DNA from: Sulfitobacter undariae
GTDB lineage: Bacteria; Pseudomonadota; Alphaproteobacteria; Rhodobacterales; Rhodobacteraceae
Length of the DNA: 64,000 nt
NCBI RefSeq assembly: GCF_014196805.1
Contig: NZ_JACIEI010000001.1
Coordinates: 372,001-436,000 of the forward strand
Reading direction: 5' to 3'
The notes beneath the pieces are model-generated. The model saw nothing but the letters and a program-made list of their open reading frames with translations, did no database searches and was not told where the DNA came from. Below are positions 39,561 through 52,687 of this stretch, piece by piece. A program made the position numbers and the translations under genes. Every line of letters starts with the position of its first letter. Within the stretch, counting starts at the first letter, position 1.

Positions 39561-39889
39561 TCCCAATCACTTAGGTTTGTCCGCTGCCCGACAGTGCATT
39601 GAAAAGCAATGGCACGAGAGGGGCGCTCGGCATCTAACTGGCGCGACGTGTATTTGGCATCAAACAGATGGCACTGCTACAGCGCTGTTGAGGCATCCAA
39701 TTGTGCGGCACTTCTGTCTTGTGACTCCAGAGTGCTGTTCTCTGCATCCAGTGCAGATGAGTTCAAGCAGCTCTAGAGCTGATGCTCTGCTTGGAAAGTA
39801 AACAGGAAACCGGGCAGCCAAGCGGCCCCAACCCAGCGAACTGTTGATCAGTGTTTGTGCCAAACCGCCCGAGAACGGGTTTCTATTAT
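39561..39889. other. Gap without a supported gene between ExoD and the IS remnant
   Basis: No frame has a ribosome site or recognisable content. The stretch next to the transposase remnant shows no further transposase similarity after its NTD motif, so the element appears cut off by recombination here. Confidence 0.5.
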
Positions 39890-40240
39890 ATGACTATCCG
39901 TGTTCACCATTTCTGGCTTCCCATATTTGGCAATCGTTTCCTCCAGCTCCTCAACATAGAAACTGGCATCTAGCGTATTTGAAAGCCGTCAGGACAGCAC
40001 CTTGCGGGTGGCCCAACCCATAATTACCGCCAAGTAAAGGAAGCCGTTTTTGACAGGTATGTAGGTAATGCCGCAACATCCACTGCTCGGCAGGGTCATA
40101 CGTAGTATGATCTCGAGAAGGGAACCTGATTGGGGCGCGCGATCGCCAGCTTTCTCAACAGAAAGGGATAGATCCGATGTTGAGGGTGCTTTTTGATGGT
40201 GTTGGGATACTCCTTAGTACGCTGTAGCACGCTGTCCAAA
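39890..40240 (-). pseudogene. Decayed IS3-family transposase OrfB fragment
   Basis: Reading the - strand gives typical IS3 OrfB text in pieces: KKHPQHRIYPFLLRKLAIAR then PNQV (about 40200-40123), a roughly 40-bp foreign insert with a stop, then ITYIPVKNGFLYLAVIMGWA and TRKVLS. A TGA follows where Trp is expected, then RLSNTLDAS, FYVEELEETIAKYGKPE and NTD (about 39895). The frame changes across the insert and the text is lost after NTD. Both a frameshift and an in-frame stop make it non-functional. It lies directly upstream of the reductive dehalogenase gene. Confidence 0.85.
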
Positions 40241-40429
40241 TTTGTCGGACCGCCTCCCTTGGGTCATGGTGCATGGCAATCTGCTTTTTCGGGTGACCTA
40301 CAGGGGGGAGTGTACTAGCTTTGCGGAGGTCCAAAACAATGGGTGGCATGCGTGAAAGTCTTTTCAAATAAAAATAGGCGACTGCATTTGGGGAGCTATC
40401 CCTGCGAGTTGCTGGCACGTCAAAGCAGC

Positions 40430-43400
40430 ATGCCTGACCTGTCGGGGGTGCCCAAATTCACACCTCTGGAATTTGATCGCCCACAAGACCCGCGTAGCAT
40501 CGTGAATGCGATGGGGGAATACCACGCGATGTTGGATGCGATCCGCCATGGGCGGGTAAACGGGACGCTGGCCGCCTGTCCTGATGACCCCGTCGCGCGG
40601 GCCGAGCATTTGAAATCATTCGGCTATTTTGCAGATGCAGCCGTGGTCGGCACGTGCCTTTTGCCTGCCTCGGCGGTGCTTGCAACGCCACAGCGGAATC
40701 CCGCGTTAGAGCGGTTGGCCGATGCGCTTCAGACCCGTCAGACCAAGACTTTGGCGGCGGGCATTGATATGATCATGGCTGATCTGAAGGATTCCATAAA
40801 AACACCTCCTGCTGCGATTGATGACCATACACATGCCATTGTGTTTATGTATGAAAATCCGCGCACGCCAGATGCTGATGAGGTGGGTACAGACTGGCTT
40901 CGTGATGCGCAGGATCATCGTGCGGGGCTTTTGGCGGCGGAAACGGCTGTGGTCTTGGCCGAATATATCCGTCTGTTGGGCTATGATGCGCGTGCGCATA
41001 CGGGGGCCGACGCGGATGTTGATCTGAACCAGCTGGCTGTCGTGGCGGGGCTGGCGACAGTTGAGAAGGGGGGGCTGAGCCATCCCTATATCGGCACGCG
41101 ATTTGGGCTGGCGGCAATCACAACCCGTTTTGAAATTGCACCTGATCAACCGCTTGTGCCGATGCAGCAGCAACCGACCTCGGCTTTCGGGTTGAGGTGG
41201 CAGATTGGCGGCGGCTATGCGCGTAACGCCAGTAATGCGGTGCCTTTTGCCAAACGCCGATTTGTCGATGGGGCGCATCCGTTTGAAACGCTCAAACGGG
41301 TGGATAACCCGACCACCTATATTGACGCGCCGCGTGTGGCACGGGTGCCAAAACGTGCGGATCTGTTTGCGCGGGCGCAATTCGGGGATATGGGCAAACC
41401 TTTGCAAAAGGGCGCTGCGGGGGGACATTATGCCCGCAAGGCGGCCCCGTCGATGGCACAACGCCGTGCGCTGGGGGCGTTTGTGCTATTGCAAGACGGT
41501 GCGGCAGCGGACACGCGGGTACAACTGCCGCCGCAAGAGGCTGCTGATCTGGTCAAAGCGACATCCTATTGGTTGGGCTGTGATGCGGTGGGCATTTCGG
41601 CCTGTCCTGATTGGACGTGGTACAGCCATGATGCCCGCGGTGATGTGATTGATCCGCCCCATGATCAGGCGATCAGCATCATCATCGACCAAGGTTTTGA
41701 GACAATGGAGGGCGCCAGCGGCGATGATTGGATCAGCGTTGCGCAATCCATGCGCGCTTATCTGCGGTTTTCGTTGCTGGGCGGTGTGATCGCGCAGCAA
41801 ATCCGAAATCTGGGTTATAGCGCCAAAGCGCATACGGTGATGGATGGCGAAGTGCTGCAACCACCGTTGTTGCTGTTGGCTGGTTTGGGCGAGGTCAGCC
41901 GTATTGGCGAAGTGATCCTTAACCCTTTCCTTGGCCCGCGTCTGAAATCCGGGGTGGTGACCACTGATCTACCCATGACCCACGACAAGCCGATTGATTT
42001 CGGACTGCAAAAATTCTGCGAAGCCTGCAATAAATGCGCCCGTGAATGCCCCTCGGGGGCGATCACGGCGGGGCCGAAGCTGATGTTCAACGGCTATGAA
42101 ATTTGGAAATCCGACAGCCAAAAATGCGCGACTTACCGTATCACCACCGAGGGCGGGGCGATGTGTGGACGTTGCATGAAGACTTGCCCGTGGAACCTTG
42201 AAGGGCTGTTCGCCGAAAAACCGTTCCGTTGGGCGGCGATGAACATTCCCGCAGCGGCCCCTGTATTGGCCAAGCTGGATGATGCTTTGGGCAAAGGCAG
42301 TCTGAACCCCGTCAAAAAATGGTGGTGGGATTTGGAGTTGGATGAAAACGGCGGCTATCTCCCGGCCAAAGCGCCAGTGAATGCGCGGTCTTTGCAAAAA
42401 GACCTTGATCTGAAATATGAGGATCAGACACTGGCCGTTTATCCTGCCAATCTCGCACCGCATCCTTACCCTTATCCTTTCCCGATGGACCGCGAGGCAG
42501 GAATCGAGGCGTATCAGGCGATGATCACCGCCGATGAATACAAGCTGCATGTGAAAAACGGCACGGTGGATAGTGTTGCGCATGTCTATGCGGGGGCGAA
42601 GGACAGCCCTGTGATACAGGCCCAAGTCAGTAAGGTCGAAGTGATGGCAGATGGCATCACCAAATATGAATTCAGCGCGCTGGATGGCAGTGAGCTGCCT
42701 GAATGGCAAGCGGGCGCGCATCTGGATATCGTGGTCGCGCCTGAGTTTTTGCGCCAGTATTCCATGTCGGGTAATCCCGCTGATCGGAGCACTTATCAGA
42801 TCGCAGTTCTGCGTGAGGACGCAGGGCGGGGTGGGTCCAAGTTGATGCACCGGATATTTGCACAGGGACGGCGGGTGTTTATCTCAAAGCCGATCAACCA
42901 CTTCCCGTTGGATACACAGGCTACCCACTCCGTTCTGATGGGCGGCGGTATCGGGATCACGCCGATGATCGCCATGGCGCATGAATTACACGCCCAATCG
43001 CGCAGTTTTGAGCTGCATTATTCGGGCCGTTCGCGTGCGACCATGGGGTTCTTGGAGGAAATGGCATCTTTTGACTGGGCGCAGCATGTTACGTTGCACA
43101 TCACAGATGAAGGCACACGTGCTGACATGGCTGCGATCTTTGCGGGTCAGGCCGAGGGCACGCATATGTATACCTGCGGGGCCGAGTCCTACATGAACGC
43201 GGTGATGCAAGCCGCCAGTGCCGCAGGCCTGCCTGACGAGGCATTGCATCTGGAGTATTTCTCGGTTCCCGAGGTGCCGGATTACGTAAACCATGACTTC
43301 ACGCTGCGTCTGAAACGCTCTGGCCGTGATGTGTTCGTGCCTGCGGACCGCGTTGCAACGGATGTGCTGGCTGAAAACGGTGTGCATCTGGATGTGAAAT

Positions 43401-43558
43401 GCGCGGATGGGTTATGCGGCGTATGTAAATGCGGGCTGGTCGCAGGAGAGGTGGAGCACCGCGATTTTGTCTTGTCAAAAGCGCAGCGCGAAACCACGGT
43501 GATCTTGTGCCAATCACGTGCCGCACAAGAGGGCGGCGTGATCGAGGTTGATCTTTAA
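40430..43558 (+). CDS. Self-sufficient reductive dehalogenase (RdhA fused to FMN/NAD reductase and 2Fe-2S ferredoxin), BhbA-like
   Basis: This is a 1042-aa multidomain enzyme. Residues 1 to about 520 form the corrinoid-binding reductive-dehalogenase region and contain two similar halves (compare GLATVEKGGLSHPYIGTRFG with GLGEVSRIGEVILNPFLGPR), as described for NpRdhA, where one half is a B12-less duplicate. Two [4Fe-4S] sites follow: C530-x2-C533-x2-C536-x3-C540 and C566, C579, C582, C586. Then come an FMN domain (R775-Q-Y-S), an NAD motif GGGIGITP (838-845) and a plant-type [2Fe-2S] site (C991, C996, C999, C1027). There is no Tat signal and no RdhB anchor, so it is cytosolic and catabolic rather than respiratory. 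The start is uncertain: ATG 40430 fits the family N-terminus, but the frame is open to GTG 40343. Confidence 0.92.
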   Translation: MPDLSGVPKFTPLEFDRPQDPRSIVNAMGEYHAMLDAIRHGRVNGTLAACPDDPVARAEHLKSFGYFADAAVVGTCLLPASAVLATPQRNPALERLADALQTRQTKTLAAGIDMIMADLKDSIKTPPAAIDDHTHAIVFMYENPRTPDADEVGTDWLRDAQDHRAGLLAAETAVVLAEYIRLLGYDARAHTGADADVDLNQLAVVAGLATVEKGGLSHPYIGTRFGLAAITTRFEIAPDQPLVPMQQQPTSAFGLRWQIGGGYARNASNAVPFAKRRFVDGAHPFETLKRVDNPTTYIDAPRVARVPKRADLFARAQFGDMGKPLQKGAAGGHYARKAAPSMAQRRALGAFVLLQDGAAADTRVQLPPQEAADLVKATSYWLGCDAVGISACPDWTWYSHDARGDVIDPPHDQAISIIIDQGFETMEGASGDDWISVAQSMRAYLRFSLLGGVIAQQIRNLGYSAKAHTVMDGEVLQPPLLLLAGLGEVSRIGEVILNPFLGPRLKSGVVTTDLPMTHDKPIDFGLQKFCEACNKCARECPSGAITAGPKLMFNGYEIWKSDSQKCATYRITTEGGAMCGRCMKTCPWNLEGLFAEKPFRWAAMNIPAAAPVLAKLDDALGKGSLNPVKKWWWDLELDENGGYLPAKAPVNARSLQKDLDLKYEDQTLAVYPANLAPHPYPYPFPMDREAGIEAYQAMITADEYKLHVKNGTVDSVAHVYAGAKDSPVIQAQVSKVEVMADGITKYEFSALDGSELPEWQAGAHLDIVVAPEFLRQYSMSGNPADRSTYQIAVLREDAGRGGSKLMHRIFAQGRRVFISKPINHFPLDTQATHSVLMGGGIGITPMIAMAHELHAQSRSFELHYSGRSRATMGFLEEMASFDWAQHVTLHITDEGTRADMAAIFAGQAEGTHMYTCGAESYMNAVMQAASAAGLPDEALHLEYFSVPEVPDYVNHDFTLRLKRSGRDVFVPADRVATDVLAENGVHLDVKCADGLCGVCKCGLVAGEVEHRDFVLSKAQRETTVILCQSRAAQEGGVIEVDL

Positions 43559-48894: not shown

Positions 48895-50598
48895 TCATTT
48901 ATCGGTGCCGGCCATTATTTCGGATTCTACTTTTTCAACGTCATCTACGCTTAGTTCATATTCTGTGATTGCTGATGTTGTGGTTATGTAACCTTTTTCC
49001 AAATCGCGCTTGATTTCGGTAGTGTCGCGTTCGGATACGGGGCCATATCCTGCACCACCCGGAAAGGCCATCTTCACGCGCTGCCCTTTAGGGATGCTCT
49101 GGCGGCCTTTGCCTTGCATGGGGGTGCCATCCTCGCGGGTAATGCGTGTAGGCGCACCATCGCCTCCGCCACGGCGCCCCCGTGCGGGATAATGCACGCG
49201 GTCCAACATGGCCGAGATGTCATACTCATAGCCGTCACGTGCGCCGATCTCCATGTATTGGCCCAACCCGCCCCGTTGCTTGCCGACACCGCCTGAATCG
49301 GCGCGCAGTTCTTTGCGCCAGATGATCACGGGGCCAGCATGTTCTGTCGCCTCTACAGGCATTGTCATTACGCCGGACGGGAAGGCGGTGGCATTCAGGC
49401 CGTCTATCAAAGGCCGCGCGCCTGCACCGCCAGAGTTGAAGGTGAGCACTTCTGCACGCCGCGCGCCCTTGGGGGCGTCGGCGGTGGGGCGCAGCGAGAT
49501 TTGAAAATTGCACAGGCATCCCGCGCCTTCGGCTGGCACGACATCGGGCAGGATTTTGTCCAGCGCGTCATAGACTGTGTCAGGGACAAAGTGGCCAACG
49601 ATGTGACGCAGGGCAACGGGGGCCGGATGCAGCGCGTTGACGATTGTGTTTTCAGGGGCGATGACTTCGAAGGGCGCAAGCGAGGCCGCGTTATTAGGGA
49701 TTTCGGGCGCGATGGCGCATTTGAGCGCGTAGCAGGCGTAGGCTTTGGCATAGACCAAGGGGCAGTTGATGCCTTTTGGATCAAGACCTGAGGTCCCTGC
49801 AAAGTCAGTCAGGATGCGGTTTCCCTCAATGGTGAGTTTGACGCGCAGGGTGATCGGTGCGGCAAACCCGTCTACCGTCATTTCGCCAGTGGCTGAGGTC
49901 CGTGGCAGGGTTGCGATGCGCTCCAATGTGGCACGGCGGGAGTTGTCAAAGATGAAGTCGGCGATGCCCGTCAGATCCGTGAGGTTGAACTCGCCCATCA
50001 TCTCGATCAGGCGGCGGTGGCCGATGTCATTGCAGGTGGCTAATGCATAGAGATCACCAACCAGTTGATCAGGTTCGCGCACATTTCCGCGCACAATCCG
50101 CAGTAGGGTTTCATCGACGGTGCCACGATCCGCAAAACGCATGATCGGCAGATACAGCCCTTCTTCGTAGATCGAGTTCGCGTCAGCTCCAAAGCCGCGC
50201 CCGCCAATATCAACCACATGGGCGGTACAGGCAAAGAACCCGACCAAGGTGCCATTGTGGAAAGAGGGGGTAACCATGGTGATGTCGTGCAAGTGGCCTG
50301 TGCCTTCCCATGGGTCGTTGGTCAGATAGACATCGCCCTGCGCCATGGTTTCACGCCCGATGCGGCGGATGAAATGGGCCACAGCATCGGCCATGGCATT
50401 CACATGCCCCGGCGTTCCTGTCACGGCCTGTGCCAGCATCAGCCCTTGGGCATCATAGACCCCTGCGGATAGATCACCCGCTTCGCGCACAGAGGTGGAG
50501 AAGGCGGTACGGACCAAGGCTTGCGCCTGTTCCTCAACGATAGAGATCAGGCGGTTCCACATGACTTGATAGGCGACAGTTGTAGGTTGCTTGCTCAT
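48895..50598 (-). CDS. hyuB: Hydantoinase B/oxoprolinase family protein (HyuB-like)
   Basis: This is the 567-aa beta-type subunit of an ATP-dependent hydantoinase/oxoprolinase. The N-terminus reads YQVMWNRLISIVEEQAQALV, followed by the conserved ISTSVREAGDLSAGVYDAQG region, VYLTNDPWEGTGHLHDITMV and VVDIGGRGFGADANSIYEEG. The C-terminal block GARPLIDGLNATAFPSGVMT then RGRRGGGDGAPTRI is also typical. It works as a heteromer with HyuA, encoded 4 bp upstream. The substrate could be a hydantoin, 5-oxoproline, N-methylhydantoin or related cyclic amide. Confidence 0.92.
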   Translation of the reverse strand: MSKQPTTVAYQVMWNRLISIVEEQAQALVRTAFSTSVREAGDLSAGVYDAQGLMLAQAVTGTPGHVNAMADAVAHFIRRIGRETMAQGDVYLTNDPWEGTGHLHDITMVTPSFHNGTLVGFFACTAHVVDIGGRGFGADANSIYEEGLYLPIMRFADRGTVDETLLRIVRGNVREPDQLVGDLYALATCNDIGHRRLIEMMGEFNLTDLTGIADFIFDNSRRATLERIATLPRTSATGEMTVDGFAAPITLRVKLTIEGNRILTDFAGTSGLDPKGINCPLVYAKAYACYALKCAIAPEIPNNAASLAPFEVIAPENTIVNALHPAPVALRHIVGHFVPDTVYDALDKILPDVVPAEGAGCLCNFQISLRPTADAPKGARRAEVLTFNSGGAGARPLIDGLNATAFPSGVMTMPVEATEHAGPVIIWRKELRADSGGVGKQRGGLGQYMEIGARDGYEYDISAMLDRVHYPARGRRGGGDGAPTRITREDGTPMQGKGRQSIPKGQRVKMAFPGGAGYGPVSERDTTEIKRDLEKGYITTTSAITEYELSVDDVEKVESEIMAGTDK

Positions 50599-50602
50599 GG
50601 TC

Positions 50603-52687
50603 CTATCCTTTGTTCTTTAGGGTGACATCGATGCAACCATCCGGTTGCCGATGCGCCCTGCGGCTGCTGGGGATGATGATGGTTGTTTCATCTTCGGTGA
50701 TGCACGCGGGGCCCGATATTTCAGTGCCGGTCACCAACCTGTGGCGTCGATACAGGTATCCGTGAACGTTTTCGCCCTTGGCCGCGTCAAAGAAGCTGCA
50801 CTTGCCATTCACCACGGCGACTTTGCCACGGGTTTGCTGAACTGCGCGATTGACAGGCTGCGGTGGGGTGGTGGCGTTGACCGACCAGACGGTGATCTCA
50901 ATATCCATGCCCACGACTGCGCGGCCAAATAGGCGCGTGTAATCGGCGGTAAAGCGTTCTTCGAATACTGCCGGATCAGGATTTTGCACTTGCTCGGCGG
51001 TTAGCGAAACAGGAATCTCCCATCCTTGCCCCTTGTAGCGCATGTAGACTTTGTATTCCGCGATGATCTCGCCCTTGGGGGCGCAGGTGCGCACAAATGA
51101 GGTCGCCTCAGCGCGTAGTTCGGCCAGTAAATCAGTCACCGTGGGCCTGTCGAACCGCGCCAGCGTCATGTAAACTGAGCGCGTAGCCTCAAAGCTGAAG
51201 GGCGCACGCAAGAAACCGATGGCCGAGCCGACACCCGCCCCTTCAGGGATCAGCAGCCGCGTGATGCCCAGCTTTTCGCACAGGCGCCCCGCATGCAGGG
51301 GGGCCGCGCCGCCAAAGGCGATCATGGTGTATTCCGACAGGTCTTCGCCATTCTCAACCGCATGCACGCGGGCGGCATTGGCCATGTTTTCATCGACAAC
51401 CTCAACCAGTCCCGAGGCGGCGGTTTTTACATCAAGGTCCAGCGGATCACCCAAGTCAGCCAGCACCGCAGCGCGAGCGGCGTTTTCATCCAGTGTCATG
51501 GTGCCGCCTGCAAATTTCTTGGCATCCAGCTTGCCAACCACCAGATTGGCGTCGGTGACAGTGGGGCGTGTACCACCACGGCCATAGCAGGCAGGGCCGG
51601 GTTCGGAGCCTGCGCTTTCTGGCCCGACACGGATCTGGCGCAGGGCATCCACATGCGCGATCGAGCCGCCGCCCGCGCCGATTTCTACCATATCAATCAC
51701 GGGGATCGAAATTGGCATGCCTGACCCCTTTTTAAAGCGGTAGCTACGGGCAACTTCAAACACGCGTGAAGTTTTGGGGGTTTGGTTCTGGATCAGGCAA
51801 ATCTTGGCGGTGGTGCCACCCATGTCAAAGCTGAGCACCTTATCCAGCCCGTAGCGCGCTGCGATATGGGCAGCAAAAACAGCCCCACCAGCGGGGCCGC
51901 TTTCAACCAGTCGTACGGGGAATTCGGCGGCATTTGTGATAGAGATAATGCCCCCGCCCGAGTGCATCAGGAAAATGGCGCAATTTACACCCTCATTGCG
52001 CAACCGTCCCTCCAGCCGCCCCAGATAGGATTTCATCAGCGGTTTGATATAGGCGTTGGCGACTGTCGTGTTGAACCGTTCATATTCGCGCATCTGCGGG
52101 GAGACTTCGCAGCTGAGCGAGATCATCACATCGGGCAGGCGGGCGGCCAGCACATCCCGCACAAGGCGTTCATGTGTGGGGTTGAGATAGCTGTGTAGCA
52201 ATCCGATGGCGACGCTTTCATACCCTGCGATGGCGATGGCTTCGACGACAGGTTCGATATCGGCGGCAGTAAGGGGCAATAGTTCGCCTCCAGAGGCATC
52301 AATGCGGCCCGGCACCGTGTAACGCCGTTGGCGCGGCAGCAGAGGTTCTGGCAGTTTCAGGTTCAGGTCATATTGTTCAAACCGCGACTCGGTGCGCATT
52401 TCGATGACATCGCGGAATCCTTCGGTGGTGATCAACGCAGTTTTAGCACCGCGGCGTTCAATCAACGCGTTGGTGGCCAAGGTAGTACCATGGATGATCT
52501 GGGTGATGTCACGTGGCTTCAGCCCCGCCTTTTCACAAACGATGTGCATGCCGTCGATGATCGCCTGTTCGGGCGCGGTATAGGTGGTCAGTACTTTGGT
52601 GGAGAAGCTGTCGCCGCCCGTCTCAAGCACAACATCTGTAAACGTGCCGCCAATATCTACGCCAAGACGTGCATCTTGTCTGTCCAT
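50603..52687 (-). CDS. hyuA: Hydantoinase A/oxoprolinase family protein (HyuA-like)
   Basis: This is a 694-aa subunit with an actin-like ATPase fold. The phosphate motif LGVDIGGTFTDVVLETGGDS is at the N-terminus, followed by IIHGTTLATNALIERRGAKT. The second phosphate region is KVLSFDMGGTTAKICLIQ, and the later SGPAGGAVFAAHIAARYGLD and MIAFGGAAPLHAGRLCEKLG complete the fold. It forms the ATP-dependent hydrolase with HyuB. It is transcribed between the GNAT gene (30 bp upstream) and hyuB. Confidence 0.93.
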   Translation of the reverse strand: MDRQDARLGVDIGGTFTDVVLETGGDSFSTKVLTTYTAPEQAIIDGMHIVCEKAGLKPRDITQIIHGTTLATNALIERRGAKTALITTEGFRDVIEMRTESRFEQYDLNLKLPEPLLPRQRRYTVPGRIDASGGELLPLTAADIEPVVEAIAIAGYESVAIGLLHSYLNPTHERLVRDVLAARLPDVMISLSCEVSPQMREYERFNTTVANAYIKPLMKSYLGRLEGRLRNEGVNCAIFLMHSGGGIISITNAAEFPVRLVESGPAGGAVFAAHIAARYGLDKVLSFDMGGTTAKICLIQNQTPKTSRVFEVARSYRFKKGSGMPISIPVIDMVEIGAGGGSIAHVDALRQIRVGPESAGSEPGPACYGRGGTRPTVTDANLVVGKLDAKKFAGGTMTLDENAARAAVLADLGDPLDLDVKTAASGLVEVVDENMANAARVHAVENGEDLSEYTMIAFGGAAPLHAGRLCEKLGITRLLIPEGAGVGSAIGFLRAPFSFEATRSVYMTLARFDRPTVTDLLAELRAEATSFVRTCAPKGEIIAEYKVYMRYKGQGWEIPVSLTAEQVQNPDPAVFEERFTADYTRLFGRAVVGMDIEITVWSVNATTPPQPVNRAVQQTRGKVAVVNGKCSFFDAAKGENVHGYLYRRHRLVTGTEISGPACITEDETTIIIPSSRRAHRQPDGCIDVTLKNKG

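Follow-up and report, generated by a model that had tools for sequence, protein, structure and literature searches.

A predicted self-sufficient catabolic reductive dehalogenase of the BhbA/JtRdhA type in Sulfitobacter undariae

A 64,000-nucleotide stretch of the Sulfitobacter undariae genome (NCBI RefSeq assembly GCF_014196805.1, contig NZ_JACIEI010000001.1, positions 372,001 to 436,000 of the forward strand; hereafter the window) carries a plus-strand gene in which a corrinoid-dependent reductive dehalogenase (RdhA) is fused to its own reductase (rdhA-PDOR fusion, 40352..43558, 1068 aa from GTG 40352). We assign its product, with a probability of about 0.9, to the cytoplasmic single-chain catabolic reductive dehalogenases of the BhbA/JtRdhA type. 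By analogy with the characterized enzymes, it is likely to remove bromine or iodine from compounds resembling phenol, with nicotinamide adenine dinucleotide phosphate (NADPH) as reductant and with no helper protein. The gene is a further member of an enzyme type that has already been described and not of a new kind, because JtRdhA, which has the same architecture, has been purified and bhbA homologues have already been called widespread.

The open frame from ATG 40430 (40430-43558, plus strand) was intact, with 1042 codons and a stop, and residues of the window protein are numbered here from that ATG. In a profile search the protein matched the reductive dehalogenase family TIGR02486 of NCBIfam with 193 bits, against a cut-off of 160. 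The catalytic corrinoid-binding core (41648..42292) contains S440, M441, Y444, K506 and R570, and the two 4Fe-4S sites (42017..42187; C530, C533, C536, C540, C566, C579, C582 and C586) were matched by the 4Fe-4S families Fer4_16/Fer4_7 at residues 530–589. The core is preceded by what appears to be a vestigial first copy of itself (40586..41152), which aligned to the first half of NpRdhA and matched TIGR02486 model positions 5–198 with 28 bits, below the cut-off. The C-terminal part comprises a flavin mononucleotide (FMN)/NAD(P)H reductase module of the phthalate dioxygenase reductase type (42614..43264; RQYSM at residue 775 and GGGIGITPM at 838), in which FMN is assumed from JtRdhA, and a plant-type 2Fe-2S domain (43310..43555; C991, C996, C999 and C1027), matched by Fer2 at residues 967–1031 with 30.7 bits (cut-off 21). 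The best sequence match of the front part in the PDB was NpRdhA (4ras/6zxu; E ~1e-149, residues 132–707), and those of the back part were the P450-reductase fusion 6kbh and phthalate dioxygenase reductase 2pia (the latter with E 3e-54 over residues 729–1034). An earlier description of this DNA, made from its letters alone (the sequence-only reading), had placed a dehalogenase region, two 4Fe-4S sites, a reductase and a plant-type ferredoxin in one frame, and both the profile and the PDB matches bore this out.

The six key residues named for NpRdhA (F291, S422, M423, Y426, K488 and R552; PMC10463259) aligned with F313, S440, M441, Y444, K506 and R570 of the window protein, the alignment being anchored at the position that is K in structure 6zxu and Q in the K488Q structure 6zy0. 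The eight 4Fe-4S cysteines also aligned with those of NpRdhA. All six residues and all eight cysteines were invariant in an alignment of 124 chosen rows, which comprised the window protein, the best 80 genome loci, BhbA, the relatives from Nitratireductor OM-1 and Jannaschia M317, and 40 stretches from further genomes. At least three records stand twice among these rows (L003/L139, L028/L149 and L075/L148), and 13 of the 51 copies from the genus, including all the partial or stop-bearing ones, were left out. The 2Fe-2S cysteines were absent solely from the short-type relative L174 and, for C1027, also from the end-cut L057. The catalytic Tyr/Lys pair, on which the sequence-only reading had made its proposal depend, was thus kept relative to both NpRdhA and BhbA (Y444 and K506) and was invariant throughout.

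Five further positions have been named as pocket residues of NpRdhA (F290, F310, P311, A419 and N452; PMC7565698). Their counterparts in the window protein were L312 (L in 16 of the 124 rows, M in 102), Y334 (Y in 104 rows, at a gapped and therefore less certain position of the alignment), A335, V437 (V in 116 rows) and V470 (V in 118 rows). In BhbA the last two of these are S and A, and its residues at NpRdhA positions 310 and 290 likewise differ from those of the window protein. Position 334 was H in 15 of the 18 copies forming a separate sequence group within the genus. An A419M exchange in NpRdhA shifts its relative activity toward a mono-bromo preference (PMC7565698); such a preference was weighed for the window protein in view of V437 and is not claimed here, the residue of JtRdhA at that position not having been seen.

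BhbA (WP_015585978, L102), encoded on plasmid pBHB of Comamonas sp. 7D-2, shared 50 % identity with the window protein over its full length (1037 aligned positions), with the same fusion, active site and clusters. Unlike the window gene, bhbA is carried by a plasmid that was typed as conjugative, and its surroundings there include ligA as well as extradiol dioxygenase, transporter and porin genes. NpRdhA of Nitratireductor pacificus (PDB 4ras, 6zxu and 6zy0) was 44 % identical to the window protein over 567 aligned positions and agreed with it in the six active-site residues, whereas it is described as lacking the reductase domain (PMC10463259) that the window protein possesses. JtRdhA, from the marine Jhaorihella thermophila (Rhodobacterales), is a self-sufficient catabolic RdhA of the present architecture whose purification and assay were published in 2023 (PMC10463259). 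According to that report, the purified enzyme contained 0.4 cobalamin, 0.53 FMN and 9.4 irons per protein, and turned over brominated and iodinated, not chlorinated, phenols in an NADPH-dependent manner, also in air. Its best substrate was 3,5-dibromo-4-hydroxybenzoate, and 3,5-diiodo-4-hydroxybenzoate, 2-iodophenol and 2,4,6-triiodophenol were handled at 66–84 % of the best rate. As described there, JtRdhA resembles the window protein in domain order, lack of a twin-arginine translocation (Tat) signal, named active-site residues and marine Rhodobacterales host, a likeness to its description rather than between compared sequences; NADPH-driven debromination has been demonstrated for JtRdhA, whereas the window protein is known from its sequence. 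Another debrominase, Ros_A3X954 of Roseobacter sp. MED193, acts on 2,6-dibromophenol and shares with the window protein a marine roseobacter host and the lack of a Tat signal (PMC13101508). Its Fe-S motifs at 283–345 (CDICTKCADACP) are unlike those of the window protein, and no fused reductase is described for it in the available part of that source, so that it is apparently of a shorter type. MED193 also encodes a full-length relative of the window gene (71 %, L053). The same source calls putative bhbA homologues widespread in the Roseobacter clade (PMC13101508), and the legend to Figure 1 of PMC10463259 includes RdhA proteins of Ruegeria, Tropicibacter and Pseudovibrio.

The sequence-only reading had described the frame as lacking both a Tat signal and an RdhB membrane anchor. 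The first 60 residues from ATG 40430 contained no RRxF[LM] motif and no stretch that was hydrophobic (best mean over 19 residues 0.29), and inspection of the leader from GTG 40343 by eye revealed no Tat-like start. An rdhB gene would not fit directly downstream, where the next gene, on the minus strand, ends 4 bp away; on the other side the small upstream frames were inspected by eye and not against families, and the check for rdhB was confined to these two flanks. Together with the full-length identity to BhbA and the retention of Y444, K506 and R570, the lack of a Tat-like start upholds the view that the protein is catabolic and self-sufficient rather than respiratory.

The start proposed for the gene, at ATG 40430, did not hold and is probably 26–29 codons too late. 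The frame remained open upstream as far as GTG 40343, and a conserved leader of the type 'FSDKNRPVHMGPYPxERLAR' was found by eye before ATG 40430 in 31 of 31 sequences, namely the window and 30 chosen relatives (27 of the 80 genome loci, BhbA, OM-1 and Jannaschia M317). In the window the leader is encoded at 40352..40429 on the plus strand (VKVFSNKNRRLHLGSYPCELLARQSS). The annotated starts of the three plasmid records (BhbA, OM-1 and Jannaschia M317) lie 27–28 codons upstream of the tblastn match, and the cloning primer used for NpRdhA encodes a comparable N-terminus (PMC7565698). From the leader, the annotated starts and the primer, translation is likely to begin at GTG 40352 or at GTG 40343 (1071 aa), and ATG 40430 is probably internal to the gene. 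A GGAGG sequence at 40325–40329 is closer to GTG 40343 than to GTG 40352, and the choice between the two was left undecided.

The genome of S. undariae contains CobN and four cobalamin riboswitches, as well as the 4-hydroxybenzoate 3-monooxygenase PobA and the beta subunit of protocatechuate 3,4-dioxygenase, encoded about 0.5 kb apart on the same contig. With these genes and riboswitches the cell is probably able to make cobalamin and to use 4-hydroxybenzoate. SoxY was also found above its cut-off, which has no bearing on the dehalogenase, and no second dehalogenase above the TIGR02486 cut-off was present in the genome. Given this setting, and the properties of JtRdhA and NpRdhA, the enzyme most likely acts within the cell on a phenolic acid, from which it would remove an ortho bromine or iodine at the expense of NADPH; the substrate would be a halophenol, of which an algal bromophenol is one candidate. 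The FMN of the C-terminal reductase module would accept a hydride from NADPH, after which electrons would travel one at a time via the attached 2Fe-2S domain and then both 4Fe-4S clusters to reach cobalamin in its base-off form. The cobalt would attack a bromine (or iodine) ortho to the phenol hydroxyl, which K506, R570 and S440 would hold, with Y444 as the putative proton donor. This electron path, the binding of the cofactors, tolerance of oxygen and a preference for bromo or iodo substrates are all predicted from JtRdhA and NpRdhA. A dehalogenated 4-hydroxyaryl product such as 4-hydroxybenzoate could be consumed by PobA and then protocatechuate 3,4-dioxygenase, since both are encoded elsewhere in the genome.

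Several results weigh against this assignment. The window protein had no match at E ≤ 1 to PF13486, the classical dehalogenase domain; PF13486 likewise had no match in the rest of the S. undariae genome or in any of 14 control genomes, and TIGR02486, which gave below-cut-off matches in 13 of these 14, was used as detector in its place. An AlphaFold model of the protein was only moderate (mean predicted local distance difference test score 70, predicted template modelling score 0.66, Fe-S region below 50). In favour of the assignment, Foldseek searches with this model returned NpRdhA first (6zxx_C, E 1.8e-47, template modelling score 0.75 by target length) and then 6kbh and 2pia (2pia with E 2.8e-27), whilst the overlays of model and NpRdhA had root-mean-square deviations near 7 Å (7.0 Å for 6zxx_C), and the model contributes little on top of the sequence evidence. 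No aromatic-breakdown gene was found among the 20 neighbouring frames searched in Pfam (30071-60159). In addition, because the pocket positions V437, V470 and Y334 differ from both NpRdhA and BhbA, the substrate range of these two enzymes is, judged from the alignment, not transferable to the window protein.

Relatives of the gene were common. Among at least 593 pattern matches listed on genome contigs, 579 encoded relatives, and those at the best 80 genome loci shared 69–86 % identity with the window protein, well beyond chance. In the family, a match at E ≤ 1e-100 was found in 81 of the 198 genomes drawn; these include partial matches in G160 (residues 755–1042 only), G102 (cut at 786) and G099 (in two pieces), and a short-type relative in G033 (43 %, residues 132–711). 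In the genus Sulfitobacter, 51 of the 58 genomes drawn had one match each, four of them partial: G224 (137–1042, with one internal stop), G234 (143–1042), G241 (247–1042) and G222 (10–960, at a contig start). The seven genus genomes without a match included one that was only 64 % complete. Copies with internal stops were seen at G193:C12, in a genome that also has an intact copy, and at G224:C4, the sole copy shown in that genome. That 51 of the 58 genus genomes and 81 of the 198 family genomes have a match suggests that the trait is nothing unusual among these marine bacteria. The rarity implied by the sequence-only reading is contradicted by these counts and by the purification of JtRdhA, of the same type and from a marine alphaproteobacterium (PMC10463259), and a specialist would expect a dehalogenase gene of this type in Sulfitobacter.

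Two other identities were weighed, a respiratory RdhA and a different corrinoid Fe-S reductase, for instance epoxyqueuosine reductase (QueG); either would have the class III cobalamin core in common with the window protein, which also gave a weak match to the QueG family TIGR00276. This match, at 25 bits, was far under the cut-off of 200, and a 342-aa frame on contig 4 with a separate, weaker reductive dehalogenase match is likely to be the QueG of the genome. With no Tat-like start, a fused reductase and a TIGR02486 score above the cut-off, both identities were rejected as extremely improbable. The same chemistry might serve another purpose, either deiodination of iodophenols and iodotyrosine-like compounds or detoxification, rather than carbon gain from algal bromophenols; this would suit the iodinated phenols accepted by JtRdhA and the lack of a catabolic neighbour among the frames searched around the window gene. 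It is rather unlikely, as the best substrate of JtRdhA is a dibrominated hydroxybenzoate, and in several relatives a PobA-type gene directly adjoins the dehalogenase, which fits use of the product as a carbon source. A PobA-type 4-hydroxybenzoate 3-monooxygenase gene lay 0–10 bp from the dehalogenase at five of the 80 loci (L058, L062, L071, L073 and L074; L062 and L074 were tested and were above the PobA cut-off, the other three being assigned by cluster membership), an adjacency that would link debromination to 4-hydroxybenzoate use in those relatives. Protocatechuate or extradiol dioxygenase genes are also annotated in the vicinity of BhbA and the OM-1 relative, and pobA near the latter.

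Recent acquisition on a mobile element under pollutant pressure, as for bhbA on its herbicide plasmid, was considered as well. The remains of an IS3-family transposase-like gene with several stops (39800-40210, minus strand) lie upstream of the dehalogenase, about 145–455 bp from GTG 40352; the part at about 39896-40206 was 66 % identical to an annotated IS3 transposase of Sulfitobacter indolifex, and portions of it matched, at 69–72 %, transposases annotated as IS3 in another five of the listed Sulfitobacter/Pseudosulfitobacter records. The neighbours of the relatives varied, with 59 distinct clusters upstream (among 77) and 66 downstream (among 78), and no neighbour was common to more than a minority of the relatives; these counts use mechanical frames of at least 80 aa, some of which may be spurious. 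In a FastTree tree (support values not examined), 14 of the 32 other genus copies (L139-L170) fell in a large roseobacter group and 18 in a separate one. Against a recent arrival stand the frequency of matches in the genus and family, a G+C content of the gene (0.573) near that of the window (0.560), and the position of the window gene on one branch with L001 and L002 in the large group. The gene also adjoins a CrtC-like gene in its own and five other genomes, out of 22 genus genomes with a CrtC-like gene. In the other 16 there was no dehalogenase within a 1.5 kb flank, nor in the seven of them that were read for about 9–10 kb on that side, and several of the 16 have a dehalogenase at another place. 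On balance such an acquisition seems improbable.

For the catabolic dehalogenase itself, the single copy in each genus genome, the changing neighbours and a pocket unlike those of NpRdhA and BhbA are mildly notable. They allow the tentative suggestion, to which we give less than an even chance, that O2-tolerant, B12-dependent removal of bromine and iodine is near-standard in a common marine genus, carried by one self-powered single-gene module per genome that is kept despite changes of place and sequence group, and that the roseobacter pocket, with valines at NpRdhA positions A419 and N452, is tuned to a natural halophenol. Enzymes of this type are important to bromine and iodine cycling in the sea and to the remediation of brominated phenols; being self-contained and driven by NADPH, they are also simpler to apply than respiratory dehalogenases. 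To this type the window gene contributes a single further member, and because the trait seems ordinary in these bacteria it should be easy to test in cultured strains.

Upstream of the dehalogenase lie a phospholipase-D-like gene and an ExoD gene, followed by 780 bp without a recognized gene, and the convergent gene 4 bp downstream encodes the CrtC-like lipocalin, accompanied by an FtsX/ATP-binding cassette set. No Rfam family, the cobalamin riboswitch included, reached its gathering score in the window, and no tRNA was found there. Among the relatives, a tripartite ATP-independent periplasmic (TRAP) transporter gene was directly upstream at six loci (one representative tested) and an oxoprolinase-type set (carboxyltransferase and LamB/YcsF families) was upstream at seven to nine. 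MarR-type regulators were found near the dehalogenase in L017 and L033, with matches below equivalog cut-offs, and are annotated in Jannaschia M317. At two loci (L045:8191-9894 and L069:8235-9908, one cluster) a sulfatase-type gene ended 6–11 bp before the dehalogenase; sulfated bromophenols occur in algae and would be a natural lead for such a neighbour. A hydantoinase A/B gene pair of the oxoprolinase type was present at 48895-52687 in the window, and its B gene was also found near the dehalogenase in L001 (88 %).

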